Below are positions 1 to 5,441 of a DNA stretch of 5,441 nt, one piece after another. The notes beneath the pieces are model-generated. The model made no database searches. It was not told the origin of the DNA and was given only the letters and a program-made list of their open reading frames with translations. Origin of the DNA: Deltaproteobacteria bacterium. GTDB lineage: Bacteria; JAUYMQ01. How positions within the stretch are numbered: position 1 is the stretch's first letter; each line of letters begins with the position of its first letter. The stretch spans positions 1-5,441 of the forward strand of contig JAUYMQ010000423.1 in assembly GCA_030698575.1 (NCBI GenBank), given 5' to 3'. Position numbers and translations under genes: made by a program.

Positions 1-2226
1 TACTGGCTCTGGTTCTCTTGCAATATCTTTTTCGGCTGGAGTCACAACTTCCTTCGGCTCTCGTGCTTTGAGGGCCGCCAGCGCTGCAGCCACGTTGGCA
101 AACCGTTGCTCCGGTTCCGGATGTGTCGCCTTGTCGAGGAAATCCGCCAGGATTGGGTACTGCGAGCGGTCCACTCCATCCCAGTTCAGCCCTCGCTCCT
201 TGGCTTGCGCACCGCCGTACCAGAAGGGCTCTTTCTCGAAAATGACATGGAAGAAACTGGCAGCCAAAGCGTAGATGTCGTCCATAGGAGAAGCGGGTCG
301 CTGTTTTTGAAATGAGGGAGAGCAATACAGAATGGTGCCGGGAGCCAAAATCGGAACGTGGATCTTGCTGACGAAATCGTAGTCAGTCAGCACCAGATCG
401 CCTCCCGAAGCGATCATATTGCGCGGGCTCACGTCGCCGTGGACAAGGCCATTGCGATGAAGCACGTCAAGCGCTTCGCTGATGACGCGCAGCCAGCGCA
501 AGCCCAACGCTTCGCTAGATCTCTCCTGCTGCTCGTCCGCCAGAAGAGGAAACACGCCGGCAAACTCGCCAAGCGGCGCTCCTTCGATCCATGTCATCAG
601 CGCGATGAAGTCGTTCTCTTGCCATTCCCTGGCCACTTCGAAGATCGTGGACAGCGCCGCGTGGCGACCGAGATGAGATCGCGCGAGGCTATAGGCTTTC
701 AAAACACGCTGCCCAGTTTCGCCCTCACGGGCGACTTTAGCGACGTAAGTCCCGAGATCCTCTCCTGTAGACCGGTCGATCTCCACCACCTTGAAAGCCG
801 TCCCAACGCCGCCCGAACCGAGACGTGCAACGATCCGATAGTCGCGATCGTGAAAGCGAACGACTTGATCCTCGGTCCAGAATCTTGCAGGCGGCGCAGC
901 CGGCAGCGGCACTGATTCGCCAAGTAATTCGGAGATCGCTTCCTCTAGGTCCTTCAGCGTGCCACGTTGCTCCGGCTCATTAGTTAGGCCTTGCGCGAAC
1001 ACTGACACCGCCCGCTGGCATAGATCATCCTCTTTTGTATGAAACAGATGGGTGAGGCATGCGCAGAGCGAATACAGGTCAGAACGATGATCTGCCGCGG
1101 CCCGGCCCTGTGCCTGAACTTCCGGCGCAACCGTGGTCTGGTCCTTCTCCGTCGGCAGGTTGCTGGAAGCCACGCTGACTTCCGAAGGAATTCTGGTGTG
1201 CTCAAAACCTGTGAGGATAACTTTGTCGTCGTGCTTAACAAGAATCGTGCGTAAAGTGAGATTCCGATGAATCATCGGCTCGTCCGGCGTCCCCGCCGCA
1301 TGTAATTCGCTCAGCGTTCTAACGGCGTCTTGCGCAAACGCCAGCCGGTTGCTCGTATTCCACGTCGCGTCCGTAGCTCTATCTTCGATGCAAGGCGCCG
1401 CCGGATCAACGACCGTAAAGAAAAACATTTCCCCTGCGTATCCGGGCGTCTCTTGATAGGAATCTAGAATCCTTGGCGCCCAAGGGTGGAGTTGCAAACG
1501 GTGAAGCGCTTCGAATCCCCGTCTAGCCTTGGCTTCGGCGTTCTTGTCGTCACTCGCCGACAAGTCATAGAGATGCAGGACAATCCGATCCTGCCGTGCA
1601 GGGTGGCTGCCCTTGTAAACGCGATGAAAACTTTCCTCTTTTTGCGACTTCAATTCCAGATTGACGTATCCGGCCAGCCTCCGCATTGAGCCATCGATGG
1701 CAACAGAGCTCTGTGGCTCCAACTTCCGGCTAAGATCTTTAACCTGCTGAGGCAACAGAACCTCGGGTGAGTTGAAGCCAATCGCACTCTTCCAATCGTT
1801 CAGCGTATGAAACCGGACGCCCCGTACTTCCTTTTGGGCAAGCCGCTTCACTTTCGAGGTTGCCTGCGTAACAAGGAATGCACTATCTACATACGGAAGG
1901 TCGCGGACAATCCGTTGGAGGGTTGTTCCGATCTTGCGAGCCTTGCTGGTCACCCGATCCGCCTCCTTACGGACACGGTCAACGTGCGAGTCCACCCACT
2001 GCGCCTCCCAGTGTTTTACCTCGATGACCCGAACACCCGGGGGGCCGATCGCGACGATATCGATCTCATCCGACTGCAACTGGTGCGTGACGGAAAACAG
2101 AAGGTTCGTCAGAAGAACCCACTCTCCGTCCCCCGGTTCGGACTGCAGACGGGTCCTTAAATGCTCGAAGGCCATCCGTTCACTCTCATTTGCAACCGGT
2201 CCGCAGGGGAAGATGGTCACTTTCAT
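1..2226 (-). CDS. NERD domain plus tandem protein kinase (pseudokinase, then kinase), PglW-like; 3' end off window
   Basis: The first 742 codons are open without a stop and continue past the left edge. Residues about 10-110 form a NERD domain: the DEIDIVAIGPPGVRVIEVKHW region (residues 53-73) has the acidic, then E-V-K, core of this nuclease-like fold. Residues about 183-438 have kinase topology, with APE at 367-369 and SDLYSL at 382-387, but HRD is HRN (320-322), DFG is GFE (340-342), there is no glycine loop, and VLHLY (216-220) stands where the lysine motif should be. Residues about 463-720 form a second kinase with loop LGSGGVG (469-475), K497, HGDVSPRN (596-603, Asp598), DYD (615-617) and DDIYAL (649-654). 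No membrane segment is seen. The ATG at 2226 follows an in-frame stop at 2245-2247 and has GGAG at 2238-2235, 8 bases away. NERD plus two kinase domains is known from PglW of Pgl/BREX type 2 phage defence. Here the PglW likeness is in architecture, not demonstrated orthology. A protein-phosphorylating defence role is inferred. Confidence 0.88.
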   Translation of the reverse strand, partial: MKVTIFPCGPVANESERMAFEHLRTRLQSEPGDGEWVLLTNLLFSVTHQLQSDEIDIVAIGPPGVRVIEVKHWEAQWVDSHVDRVRKEADRVTSKARKIGTTLQRIVRDLPYVDSAFLVTQATSKVKRLAQKEVRGVRFHTLNDWKSAIGFNSPEVLLPQQVKDLSRKLEPQSSVAIDGSMRRLAGYVNLELKSQKEESFHRVYKGSHPARQDRIVLHLYDLSASDDKNAEAKARRGFEALHRLQLHPWAPRILDSYQETPGYAGEMFFFTVVDPAAPCIEDRATDATWNTSNRLAFAQDAVRTLSELHAAGTPDEPMIHRNLTLRTILVKHDDKVILTGFEHTRIPSEVSVASSNLPTEKDQTTVAPEVQAQGRAAADHRSDLYSLCACLTHLFHTKEDDLCQRAVSVFAQGLTNEPEQRGTLKDLEEAISELLGESVPLPAAPPARFWTEDQVVRFHDRDYRIVARLGSGGVGTAFKVVEIDRSTGEDLGTYVAKVAREGETGQRVLKAYSLARSHLGRHAALSTIFEVAREWQENDFIALMTWIEGAPLGEFAGVFPLLADEQQERSSEALGLRWLRVISEALDVLHRNGLVHGDVSPRNMIASGGDLVLTDYDFVSKIHVPILAPGTILYCSPSFQKQRPASPMDDIYALAASFFHVIFEKEPFWYGGAQAKERGLNWDGVDRSQYPILADFLDKATHPEPEQRFANVAAALAALKAREPKEVVTPAEKDIAREPEPV

Positions 2227-2585
2227 ATTGTTAGCTCCGTTGCTTCAATTCCCGTTTGTCGCATGACATCTTTGGCTTCTCCGCAGGTGGTAATGTTCTT
2301 GCTCCAGTTGGCGAAAACGAAGCCGGCCACGCCCTCGACCTGGTCAACCGCTACAAGATATTGCATCCGAACGTCTCTGAATGTGAAACCCCTCCACCCA
2401 CCTTCTCTCCTCCCACCGAACTCCAAGCGTTCAGCCCAGGCCACCCCCTCGTCGGTCATTTGCACGGCCGCCCACGCCCCGCTCAGACCCTCTGCGTCCC
2501 CTACGAACGCCCCACACTGGTCCTGCACCTCTAGGTCCTTCCACACGTCTGCCGTGCCGATAGCCAACGCGTCCGACTCAGGCAC
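2223..2585 (-). CDS. Small unrecognised protein, translationally coupled to the NERD-kinase gene
   Basis: This is a 120-residue frame read from a GTG at 2585. Its TGA (2225-2223) overlaps the kinase ATG (2226-2224) in an ATGA arrangement, so the two genes are probably co-translated. I do not recognise the family. The protein is soluble-looking, with no signal peptide or membrane span. It has alternating hydrophobic stretches typical of beta strands (AVQMTDEGVAWAERLEF, WRGFTFRDVRMQYLVAVDQV), ending in a short, possibly helical tail (EAKDVMRQTGIEA). Third codon positions are mostly G or C (17 of the first 21 codons), as expected for a coding frame here. The GTG lacks a convincing ribosome-binding site, so the real start may be further upstream in another frame (see the 2600-2737 entry). 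If so, the intact protein would be about 171 residues. A role as partner or regulator of the kinase is inferred only from the overlap. Confidence 0.65.
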   Translation of the reverse strand: MPESDALAIGTADVWKDLEVQDQCGAFVGDAEGLSGAWAAVQMTDEGVAWAERLEFGGRREGGWRGFTFRDVRMQYLVAVDQVEGVAGFVFANWSKNITTCGEAKDVMRQTGIEATELTI

Positions 2586-2802: not shown

Positions 2803-2832
2803 TGTGTACGCCTTTTGGGCGCTGGAGGTCAA
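2803..2832 (-). promoter_or_regulatory. Weak sigma70-like promoter candidate for the small gene/kinase unit
   Basis: On the minus strand TTGACC (2832-2827) is followed after 18 bases by TACACA (2808-2803). The -35 matches 5 of 6 consensus bases, the -10 only 3 of 6. The -35 overlaps the stop codon of the upstream cysteine-cluster gene. It lies about 66 bases before the ATG at 2737. It is judged by eye only; read-through from the upstream gene is equally possible, since no clear terminator separates them. Confidence 0.25.
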
Positions 2833-3536
2833 GCAGAGCGCGGAACCCCGGGGACAGTCCCACTTTTCGGGGATGCCCTCGGGCTGGTCAACGCCTGGGT
2901 GAAAAGTGGGACTGAAAAGTGGGACAGTCCCCCGGGAGCGGTGGGCCGGTAGCCCGCCGCCAGGGTTTGAACCGTGCATGCCGGCGTGAGCACCGTGACG
3001 GGCATGGCTCCCGGTCGATCCACCGAAGCGACGTAGCCAGCGAACGACCACTGGTAGAGACGGTCGCCCCAGACGAGCCACGCGTGCGTCTGATCCTCAG
3101 ACCGAAGAATCATCGCACCGTCCGGCAGGCCGGCCAGATCGGCGGCATGGCGGCGCTGGGTCTTGCCCTCCAGGCGATCCTTGTGGAGCTGAACATTCAA
3201 TTGTGTTGCTGACGGCCTGGCGCCACGCGCCTTCTGCCAGGCTTCCAGAAACCGGTTGTAATCCGCCCGCCGGCACTCCGCGCACGGCCGGTGCCCTGCA
3301 GCGAGTGCCGTGGGCTCGTCCAGGAAGAAAAGCTCGGTGTACGATTTCGGGGTCATGACTTGACGCTTGCGGCCCTTGAATTCGAGCAGGCAGCAAACCC
3401 AGCAATTCGTATTCCAGCGCCTCTTTAGAAGCCGGCGGTGTTCGTCATGCAGCCCGCCCCGATTCCCCAGGAAGGCGCCCCTCTCGGGGGTGGCCACAAT
3501 CTCGCCGAACGGTGAAACGCGATTCTGGAGAGGCAT
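2829..3536 (-). CDS. Conserved hypothetical protein with two cysteine clusters; C-terminus repeat-derived
   Basis: This is a 235-residue cytoplasmic-looking protein. The ATG at 3536 has AAGGGG (3550-3545) 8 bases upstream. It begins MPLQNRVSPFGEIV and has a cysteine cluster CWVCC (residues 45-49), a conserved-looking segment YTELFFLDE (66-74), then GHRPCAECRRAD (81-92). From memory this matches a family of unknown function found in several phyla. The C-x-x-C of HRPCAEC and the earlier cysteines resemble the zinc-binding Cys4 site of the Ada N-terminal domain, so metal binding is plausible but inferred. Family members, as I recall them, end soon after the AAGYRP segment. Here that motif falls at about 193-198 and is followed by a 36-residue tail (200-235) of low-complexity Pro/Ser/Gly sequence, most of it read from a palindromic repeat element. 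No catalytic function can be assigned. It precedes the small gene by 91 bases on the same strand and is divergent from the phosphodiesterase. Confidence 0.85.
   Translation of the reverse strand: MPLQNRVSPFGEIVATPERGAFLGNRGGLHDEHRRLLKRRWNTNCWVCCLLEFKGRKRQVMTPKSYTELFFLDEPTALAAGHRPCAECRRADYNRFLEAWQKARGARPSATQLNVQLHKDRLEGKTQRRHAADLAGLPDGAMILRSEDQTHAWLVWGDRLYQWSFAGYVASVDRPGAMPVTVLTPACTVQTLAAGYRPTAPGGLSHFSVPLFTQALTSPRASPKSGTVPGVPRSA
2846..2936. repeat. Palindromic interspersed element, copy A
   Basis: The left arm at 2846-2868 and the right arm at 2914-2936 are inverted repeats matching at 21 of 23 positions. Each contains the odd palindrome GGGACAGTCCC (2851-2861 and 2921-2931) joined to CTTTTC or GAAAAG. 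A 13-base direct duplication (2901-2913 and 2914-2926, one mismatch) doubles the right arm. Without it the core is 68 bases, exactly the length of copy B. The layout resembles REP/BIME or MITE-type elements mobilised in trans. It lies in the last codons of the cysteine-cluster gene. Confidence 0.8.
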
Positions 3537-3578
3537 GTCCGTTACCCCTTCTCCCCGGGTGGAGGACTTCCTTTCACG

Positions 3579-3606
3579 CTTATCGCTTCACGTGCGTGGG
3601 GGTCAA
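3579..3606 (-). promoter_or_regulatory. Candidate promoter of the cysteine-cluster gene
   Basis: In the divergent spacer, minus-strand TTGACC (3606-3601) is followed after 16 bases by GATAAG (3584-3579), with 5 and 4 matches to the sigma70 consensus hexamers. The -10 lies about 42 bases before the ATG at 3536. The host sigma factor preferences are unknown. I found no comparably good plus-strand promoter for the phosphodiesterase in the same spacer (3537-3670). Confidence 0.35.
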
Positions 3607-3670
3607 GTGGAGCGGATCACGGGTATCGGTTAAGCTCGGACCTCTTGGATGTGAAGCGGGGGAGAGAAAT

Positions 3671-5441
3671 TTGCGAAGACTCCGAACGATAGTAGCGTTG
3701 CTCGTGACAGCGCTCGTCTTCGGTTGCCCTTCGGCCGCGGAGAAGCCGGACGGCGAGCCATCACCTGCCGTTAAGGAGAGCACCGACGCGGCACCGTCGA
3801 AGGAGACCGCGGAAGCCCCGGCACCTGAAACATCGCCCGACGACACCCTCCGCACCATCGTCCTCGTCATCGACGGACTCCAGCCCGGCGACGTACGCCC
3901 CGGCCTGGCCCCGGAACTGTGCCGCGCGGCCCACTGCCCCGGCACGACCACGCCCGACCCCGCGAGCCACGCCACCCTCTACACCCAGGCGCGCGCCGCG
4001 ATGCCGACGCAGACCAACCCGAACCACGTCGCCATGATGACCGGCGAGTACGGCGCGCGGTCGGGCCTCGTCGGCAACGCGTTCTACAACCGCACCCTCC
4101 AGCAGGCCCAGCGGATGGAGGACCCGGCGCTGATCGGGGTGCCGACGATCTTTGACCTCTTTGCTGCGGAACCTCGGGGACAGTCCCCGCCCCATCCGAC
4201 GAAGAAGGGACAGTCCCCCTTTTCGGAAACGCCGTCTGGTGACGGAACGCCGCGGAGAAAAGTGGGACAGTCCCTTACGGCAGCGGTGTTCGGCAAGGAG
4301 AAGCTCCGCAAGCTGTTCGACTGCACGCGGCGGGGCGATGGGTGCGGGACGAGCAACGCGAATCCCGAAGAGATCTTCGTCACGCACGTGGCGCCCGACA
4401 TCCTGAAGGGCTCGGCCGAGTCGCCCGCGCCCGAGGGCGACGACTGCCCGGCCGATCCGGCGGCGAGCTACGGCGTGGCGCAGGATGCGTGCATCATGGA
4501 TCGCGTGATCGAGATCATCGATCGCGACGACCCGGCCTTCGTCTTTGTGAACCTGGGCCGTGTCGATTTCGAGCAGCACGCCCACGGGCCGGGGAGCCCG
4601 GAGGCCGACGACGCCATCAAGGAGGCCGATCGGCAGGTGGGGCGCCTCGTTGCGCATCTGAAGGAGAAGGGCCTCTGGGTGCGCACGGTGCTCTTCGTGC
4701 TGAGCGACCACTCGTTCTCGCGGCAGTCTGCCGAGGCGCCGCACGTGATCGATCTCGACGCGCTCTTCGAGGCAGACCGCAAGAAGCGGCCGCGCGCCTG
4801 GGGCACGCATGGCGGGCTCGAGCAGCCTTACAGCGTGATCACCGGCGGTGGCGCGGCGACGGTGGTGCTGACCGACCTCCGGGCCGACGCGCGGTATCTG
4901 AGCCCCGCGAACGCCGAGGCGCTGAAACGCATGCGCGAGGTGGCACTGTTTGCGAGGCAGGGAAGGCCGCGGGCGGGCGTGTCGGAAGCGCTCTACCGCA
5001 TCGAGAACCCGCGCGACAAGGGGCACACGCTCAGCGAGGTGCGCCCGGCGTGGCGCATCGACTCGCCGCGGCTGGGCGAGCTGCTGGTGACGGCGGAGGC
5101 GGGGAAAGGCGACGGCAAGCCCGGCTACGTCTTCGCGCAGCGCGACTCGTTTGCGGCGAGGGCGCCGGGGAACCACGGGCATCCCGGCACGCGGCACATT
5201 CCGTTCGTCGTCGTGAGCGGGGGCGATTTCGTGGTCGATCAGATCGTCGAGGCGTCAAACCCCGCGGCCATCAACGAGGCGGACGACACGGCGGCGCTTC
5301 CGGAGCAGGCCGAAGTGGTCGACGTGGCGCCGACGGTGCTCTGGTTGCACGGGCTGCTGCCGCCGGAAGCGAACGATGCGACCGCGCTCTTGCCGATGGC
5401 GGAGGGGCGCGTGCTCAGGGAGGCGTTCAAGGAGGGGTGGG
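3671..5441 (+). CDS. Type I phosphodiesterase/nucleotide pyrophosphatase family lipoprotein (alkaline phosphatase superfamily); 3' end off window
   Basis: 590 codons are open from a TTG start that has GGGGGAG ending 6 bases upstream. Residues 1-19 look like a lipoprotein signal (RRLRTIVALLVTALVFGC, Cys19), followed by a Pro/Glu/Ala/Thr-rich linker to about residue 58; this implies export and membrane anchoring. The catalytic core has the expected superfamily residues: metal Asp in VLVIDG (Asp68), nucleophile Thr115 in MPTQTNPNH, metal ligands Asp299 and His303 in RVDFEQHAHGP, Asp346-His347 in LSDHS, and His502 in PGNHGHP. The family hydrolyses phosphodiester or pyrophosphate bonds in nucleotides or similar esters using two zinc ions; the substrate here is unknown. 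The end reads GRVLREAF, close to the usual C-terminus, so little is missing. Residues about 168-201 are repeat-derived and interrupt the family sequence between TIFDLFAAE and LTAAVFGKEKL, without breaking the frame. GC is higher (about 62-70% in lines I counted) than in the kinase gene. Confidence 0.9.
   Translation, partial: MRRLRTIVALLVTALVFGCPSAAEKPDGEPSPAVKESTDAAPSKETAEAPAPETSPDDTLRTIVLVIDGLQPGDVRPGLAPELCRAAHCPGTTTPDPASHATLYTQARAAMPTQTNPNHVAMMTGEYGARSGLVGNAFYNRTLQQAQRMEDPALIGVPTIFDLFAAEPRGQSPPHPTKKGQSPFSETPSGDGTPRRKVGQSLTAAVFGKEKLRKLFDCTRRGDGCGTSNANPEEIFVTHVAPDILKGSAESPAPEGDDCPADPAASYGVAQDACIMDRVIEIIDRDDPAFVFVNLGRVDFEQHAHGPGSPEADDAIKEADRQVGRLVAHLKEKGLWVRTVLFVLSDHSFSRQSAEAPHVIDLDALFEADRKKRPRAWGTHGGLEQPYSVITGGGAATVVLTDLRADARYLSPANAEALKRMREVALFARQGRPRAGVSEALYRIENPRDKGHTLSEVRPAWRIDSPRLGELLVTAEAGKGDGKPGYVFAQRDSFAARAPGNHGHPGTRHIPFVVVSGGDFVVDQIVEASNPAAINEADDTAALPEQAEVVDVAPTVLWLHGLLPPEANDATALLPMAEGRVLREAFKEGW
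4177..4274. repeat. Palindromic interspersed element, copy B, inside the phosphodiesterase gene
   Basis: Three copies of GGGACAGTCCC occur at 4177-4187, 4207-4217 and 4264-4274. The arms 4207-4224 and 4257-4274 are inverted repeats with 16 of 18 matches. The unit 4207-4274 is 68 bases and has the same arm-to-arm spacing as copy A. Upstream flanks are also shared: GCGGAACC precedes both copies (4166-4173 and 2840-2847). A further left-end copy 30 bases upstream (4177) extends it. The reading frame of the host gene is kept through the whole element. Confidence 0.8.

Follow-up and report, generated by a model that had tools for sequence, protein, structure and literature searches.

Rakesh, Aravind and Krishnan (2024, PMC10853773) have argued that DndFGH works against invaders as a complex of its own, in which subunits G and H bind DNA, H translocates by its HerA motor and cuts by its restriction endonuclease (REase) domain, and F senses nucleotide, while NERD, kinase and other domains fused to the complex are regarded as back-up effectors. 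The same work characterizes the DndF core by a canonical Walker A motif, an ND after strand 2, an Asn in Walker B, a large helical lid bearing a Zn insert, and an alpha+beta domain at the C-terminus, and describes DndF variants that carry an N-terminal NERD domain followed by an inactive and an active S/T/Y kinase (PMC10853773). DndG is described as a triple wHTH protein, and DndH as including an inactive methylase. A 2026 survey of BREX by the same group reported an identical NERD, inactive kinase and active kinase front for PglW and for a subset of DndF proteins (PMC12839542), and the restriction mechanism of MADS is listed as unknown in a 2026 review (PMC12904381).

The window analyzed here is a whole contig of 5441 bp (labelled G000:C600), on the minus strand of which an ORF of 742 codons runs from 2226 to 1 and lies open, with no stop, at the contig end. 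The gene, hereafter gene A, is truncated by this end, and about 600 C-terminal residues are absent in comparison with full-length relatives. Based on sequence comparisons, we propose with high confidence that the product of this ORF is the front half of a DndF-type subunit, and that the subunit belongs to a DndFGH-type DNA restriction module, A-B-C, which consists of three genes, stands alone and would have MAD6-7-8 of MADS as its sister. The features assigned to the ORF are as follows.

1..2226, minus strand: N-terminal 742 residues of a predicted DndF-type NERD-pseudokinase-kinase protein (ORF, Pfam, and relatives of ~1340 aa)
1852..2226, minus strand: NERD domain of the PD-(D/E)XK type, approximately residues 1-125 (Pfam; invariant E16, D53/D56 and E69xK71; strand-helix order in the AlphaFold2 model)
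925..1629, minus strand: pseudokinase, approximately residues 200-434 (Pfam, and motif loss in all relatives)
61..864, minus strand: active-looking Ser/Thr-type kinase, approximately residues 455-722 (Pfam, Foldseek and motifs)
1..60, minus strand: variable linker within which the contig ends, directly followed in relatives by the DndF-type P-loop core (alignment)

All three N-terminal domains were matched above the Pfam gathering cut-offs, the NERD domain at residues 14-81 (E 1.5e-8), the first kinase fold at residues 289-414 (E 2.7e-9) and the second, Pkinase, at residues 463-673 (E 2.6e-19). Motif columns were compared over 16 sequences for the NERD domain and both kinases. The NERD motif is intact, with E16, D53/D56 and E69-V-K71 invariant. 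In the first kinase, HRD is replaced by HRN, HRS or HRA and DFG by TGF, IGL, TAF or AGW, and His occupies the position of the VAIK lysine or the one next to it; as neither the catalytic lysine nor either of the catalytic aspartates is left, this kinase should be dead in every member. The second kinase retains the G-loop LGSGGVGT, K497, HGD598, N603 and D615 (DYD), and since all its catalytic residues are kept, it looks active. An AlphaFold2 model of the part in the window is of only fair quality (pLDDT 71), the N-lobe of the pseudokinase being poorly modelled, and the best Foldseek matches to it are protein kinases including PknG and PknA (E ~1e-10). Thus, the combination of a NERD domain, a pseudokinase and an active-looking kinase in one polypeptide, which the preliminary description had read from this sequence, stands. 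Additionally, the GC content of gene A is 56.8% (GC3 0.63) vs 68.5% (GC3 0.85) in the flanking phosphodiesterase gene, which is consistent with horizontal acquisition.

A homologue scan of one genome per species identified 14 relatives of gene A with 59-71% identity and one divergent relative; divergent ones are present in Novosphingobium and Rhizobium. Homologues are 58-71% identical over the whole length, and identity at this level indicates that the NERD-kinase architecture is not due to chance. The relatives are spread patchily over ~10 phyla, occurring in candidate Binatota, Deltaproteobacteria/Myxococcota, Acidobacteriota, Chloroflexota, Planctomycetota, Omnitrophota, Spirochaetota, Bacteroidota, Latescibacterota and Pseudomonadota. 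Full-length A proteins comprise 1316-1380 aa, typically ~1340 aa, and in every sufficiently long locus the order A-B-C is identical, with the genes overlapping or nearly so: gene B (~605 aa) directly follows A, and gene C encodes 1648-1710 aa (~1680 aa) in the loci that hold it whole. The same three genes are found at 34-42% identity on plasmids of Rhizobium phaseoli and R. anhuiense. Only A, B and C are common to the relative loci, all other shared pairs being at chance level, and no conserved modification gene adjoins A-B-C in the flanks examined. The flanks themselves vary, holding a type I RM system (L003), SIR2 (L012), HIRAN/ARPP-1 (L008) or metabolic genes (L002, L006). In L003, the gene directly upstream of A-B-C (L003:6159-9521) encodes a type I HsdR that bears a GIY-YIG domain close to the N-terminus, and a short fragment resembling HsdR (9494-9988) comes after it; and in a single case, the conjugative plasmid of R. 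anhuiense, two DNA methyltransferase genes lie directly downstream of A-B-C (L030:23144-26106).

The C-terminal half of A, seen in the relatives, carries a P-loop core in which CGNAGDGKT (Walker A), (A/V)xNDGR, LNxRSLVG and CxxC...C are invariant or nearly so among the aligned sequences, a core of this kind reading SLLQSYPGSRWGN...CGNAGDGKT. In a predicted-structure model of this core, a strand and the P-loop are accompanied by a long lid made of helices, and the C-terminal end folds as an alpha+beta domain, so that alignment and model together reproduce the published DndF signature (PMC10853773). Profile comparisons point the same way: the C-terminal part of A is matched by the SspF profile with E 2e-15 and by the TIGR03238 (DptF) profile with E 4e-4, the latter below its curated cut-off, while in the reverse direction a profile of the A core (hmmsearch) matches MAD6 (E 2e-49) and a genuine DptF of Aliivibrio wodanis (E 2e-6), and matches none of the shuffled and control proteins. 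This reference DptF is encoded beside dndBCDE on the A. wodanis dnd plasmid, and a TIGR03238 survey for further references yielded one weak match. A Foldseek search of the DndF-like core against the PDB returned no significant match. Given a core with the DndF signature and B and C always following it in the relatives, A appears to be a DndF-like subunit and not PglW.

The products of B and C were compared in the same way. The NCBIfam MAD7 model matches B over most of its length (E 1e-44), at 154 bits against a cut-off of 410, and SspG matches it weakly; a direct sequence comparison of B with DptG and a search of the PDB sequences with the B profile both found nothing. Protein C has the make-up of DndH, namely ~1700 aa with an REase and a C-terminal HerA/FtsK domain. 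Its middle part matches MAD8 and its C-terminal HerA domain matches DptH, the crystal structure of which (7es4) is matched over nearly its full length with E 2.8e-12. C keeps the Walker A and B motifs and the sensor Q of HerA, as well as an REase-like RPDLIYV..FIEVK motif, in which A replaces K in one of nine sequences. MAD7 and MAD8 are nearer counterparts of B and of the middle part of C than DptG and DptH are, so DndFGH is used here as the name of a class and not as a statement of close kinship.

In the own assembly (91.6% complete), neither the rest of A nor C was found, and a MAD7 family search for B was empty; close relatives of the host genome, sought for synteny, gave matches at the level of the same domain only. 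The DndF core, B and C are thus assigned to this organism from relatives sharing 58-71% identity over the shared part, and we infer that this genome encodes, or once encoded, subunits G and H. The preliminary description had expected the gene to belong to a NERD-kinase defence system whose remaining genes lie to the left of the window, and both expectations are borne out by the relatives, in which REase and HerA proteins share an operon with A and follow it on that side. The leftward extension that it had proposed is impossible, the window being the entire contig. It had also held this system to be divergent or undescribed; the gene is indeed no close PglW, but the architecture of NERD, inactive kinase, active kinase and DndF core is already published (PMC10853773, PMC12839542), so that it represents a good new example and not a new system. 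Judged from its sequence, the gene fits within the subset of DndF proteins with a NERD-kinase front.

Among the known systems, the DndF variants resemble A-B-C in domain order, P-loop core signature and three-gene operon, and DndFGH resembles it in the REase and HerA domains of the third subunit and in standing alone without modification genes (PMC10853773). The differences are that B lacks a direct match to DptG and that C matches DptH only in the C-terminal HerA domain. In SspFGH, the partner of SspABCD, the SspF profile matches the A core as given above and SspG weakly matches B, but no phosphorothioation genes were seen adjoining the A-B-C operon, and the NERD and kinase part would not fit into SspF at the length of its PADLOC models (525-600 aa). 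DndC was not matched in six relatives' genomes or in the own genome, in a search in which the control genomes too stayed below the cut-off. Absence of DndC from these genomes makes self recognition based on phosphorothioates unlikely, and a phosphorothioation-dependent Dnd system was rejected on this ground, within the limit set by the controls.

MADS is the other close system, and three MADS loci were read, in genome G088, on a Piscinibacter plasmid, and in the spirochaete genome that also holds the A-B-C locus L011. In G088, MAD2, MAD5, MAD6 and MAD7 score above the NCBIfam cut-offs and MAD8 just below. MAD6 in all three loci has 1375-1391 aa, much longer than its NCBIfam (612) and PADLOC (659) models, and over its second half it can be aligned to the DndF-type core of A.

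L035:12295-16464, L042:4194-8369 and L048:6876-11003: MAD6 with a DndF-like core after the kinases

This alignment indicates that MAD6-7-8 and A-B-C are homologous modules, all three proteins having their counterparts; A-B-C, a module of DndFGH type, stands even nearer to MAD6-7-8. They differ in that no MAD1-5 modification part adjoins A-B-C and in that the HerA part of C is nearer to DptH than to MAD8. In the phylogenetic tree, the A group is split from MAD6 with support of 99/99; only this split is used, since DptF and G059 form long branches, that of DptF being too long for placement. In the spirochaete genome (G293), both modules are present at different places, A-B-C at L011 and MADS at L048.

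Of the alternatives considered, the one that survives best, although improbable, is that the ORF is the MAD6 of a complete MADS whose MAD2 methyltransferase and MAD5 specificity subunit lie nearby but off the contig. The NCBIfam MAD6 model matches A (E 3e-47) and MAD7 matches B as above, and MAD6 of real MADS loci also has the DndF-like core; both matches, however, fall well short of the equivalog cut-offs (161 of 460 bits for MAD6), the A group forms its own branch, and no MAD2 or MAD5 adjoins A-B-C in the relatives with both flanks read. Furthermore, the spirochaete keeps a separate MADS elsewhere, MAD2 exceeds its cut-off in only one of seven genomes and there on another contig, and in the own genome only weak MAD2-like matches are found, on other contigs.

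Still less probable is a solitary NERD-kinase regulator unrelated to defence. It would suit the window taken alone, which shows only a signalling-like part flanked by an ordinary enzyme gene, the phosphodiesterase; yet the strict operon with REase and HerA proteins in the relatives, patchily spread over the phyla named above, argues against it.

That the ORF encodes PglW of the BREX type 2 (Pgl) system now has very little probability, and comparison with the relatives has already refuted it. The two share the N-terminal order of NERD, pseudokinase and kinase, and PglW profiles give weak matches that are best in the kinase (E 8.5e-12; E 2.6e-8). Their C-terminal halves differ, as the relatives carry the DndF-type P-loop core in place of the triple-wHTH and iSTAND of PglW (PMC12839542), and so do their operon partners, no PglX, PglZ, BrxC or BrxHI being present among the flanking genes examined. 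The earlier remark that the plan is PglW-like but the sequence not close to PglW agrees with the NCBIfam BREX_PglW score of 43.6 bits against a cut-off of 990; of the profile checks it had proposed, the NERD search succeeded at the Pfam cut-off, while PglW and MAD6 fell short of theirs. The PglZ, methyltransferase or helicase neighbours it had looked for as support proved not to be conserved in the relatives.

The Mokosh system includes a helicase part and a PLD nuclease partner, and its MkoA, although the best PADLOC match (E 1e-29, over NERD and kinase), is the least probable identity of all, as the match is limited to these shared domains and the relatives have neither a helicase domain after the kinase nor a PLD nuclease partner.

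With the DndF-type assignment, the identity of a puzzling NERD-kinase fragment would be settled, and N-termini that appear PglW-like need to be judged by what follows the kinases. By analogy with DndFGH, kinase-gated restriction by the whole complex seems the most likely mode of action, the following detailed mechanism having about an even chance of being correct. The MAD7-like subunit G and the large subunit H would bind DNA, and H could travel along invading DNA by its HerA-type motor and cut it with its putative REase domain. The P-loop core of F would bind nucleotide and gate the complex, presumably as a nucleotide sensor. The active kinase, steered by the pseudokinase, might phosphorylate cell proteins or the complex itself, and NERD could serve as a second nuclease, so that NERD and kinase together may act as a regulator or as a back-up, possibly suicidal, effector.

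More tentatively, and with rather less likelihood than the mechanism above, A-B-C could represent a distinct modification-free FGH subtype linking DndFGH and MADS, which would be kinase-gated and tell self from non-self without a partner methylase or sulfur modification. If so, the MAD6-7-8 effector part of MADS would be a DndFGH-type complex. The homology of MAD6-7-8 in real MADS to the DndFGH-type module, including the DndF-like core in MAD6, forms a bridge between the two systems, through which the MADS effector becomes directly testable by analogy with DndFGH.

Further ORFs in the window are as follows.

2223-2585, minus strand: small ORF, coding-like by codon-position GC, its stop codon sharing bases with the start codon of gene A (ATGA)
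2829-3536, minus strand: ORF matching the PADLOC candidate family PDC-S40 (E 3e-83)
3512-5440, plus strand: member of the type I phosphodiesterase/nucleotide pyrophosphatase family, N-terminus lipobox-like, gene also truncated at the contig end

The small ORF, taken in the preliminary description as the upstream partner of gene A, lacks any detectable relative both in the rest of the own genome and in the relatives' loci, and a role as conserved partner was rejected despite the ATGA overlap. The PDC-S40 ORF lies ~600 bases upstream of gene A on the same strand. A palindromic repeat (GGGACAGTCCC.CTTTTC ... GAAAAGTGGGACAGTCCC), which looks like a REP-type dispersed repeat, occurs in two copies at 2846-2936 and 4166-4274, the second lying in frame inside the phosphodiesterase gene, to which it adds roughly 35 residues.
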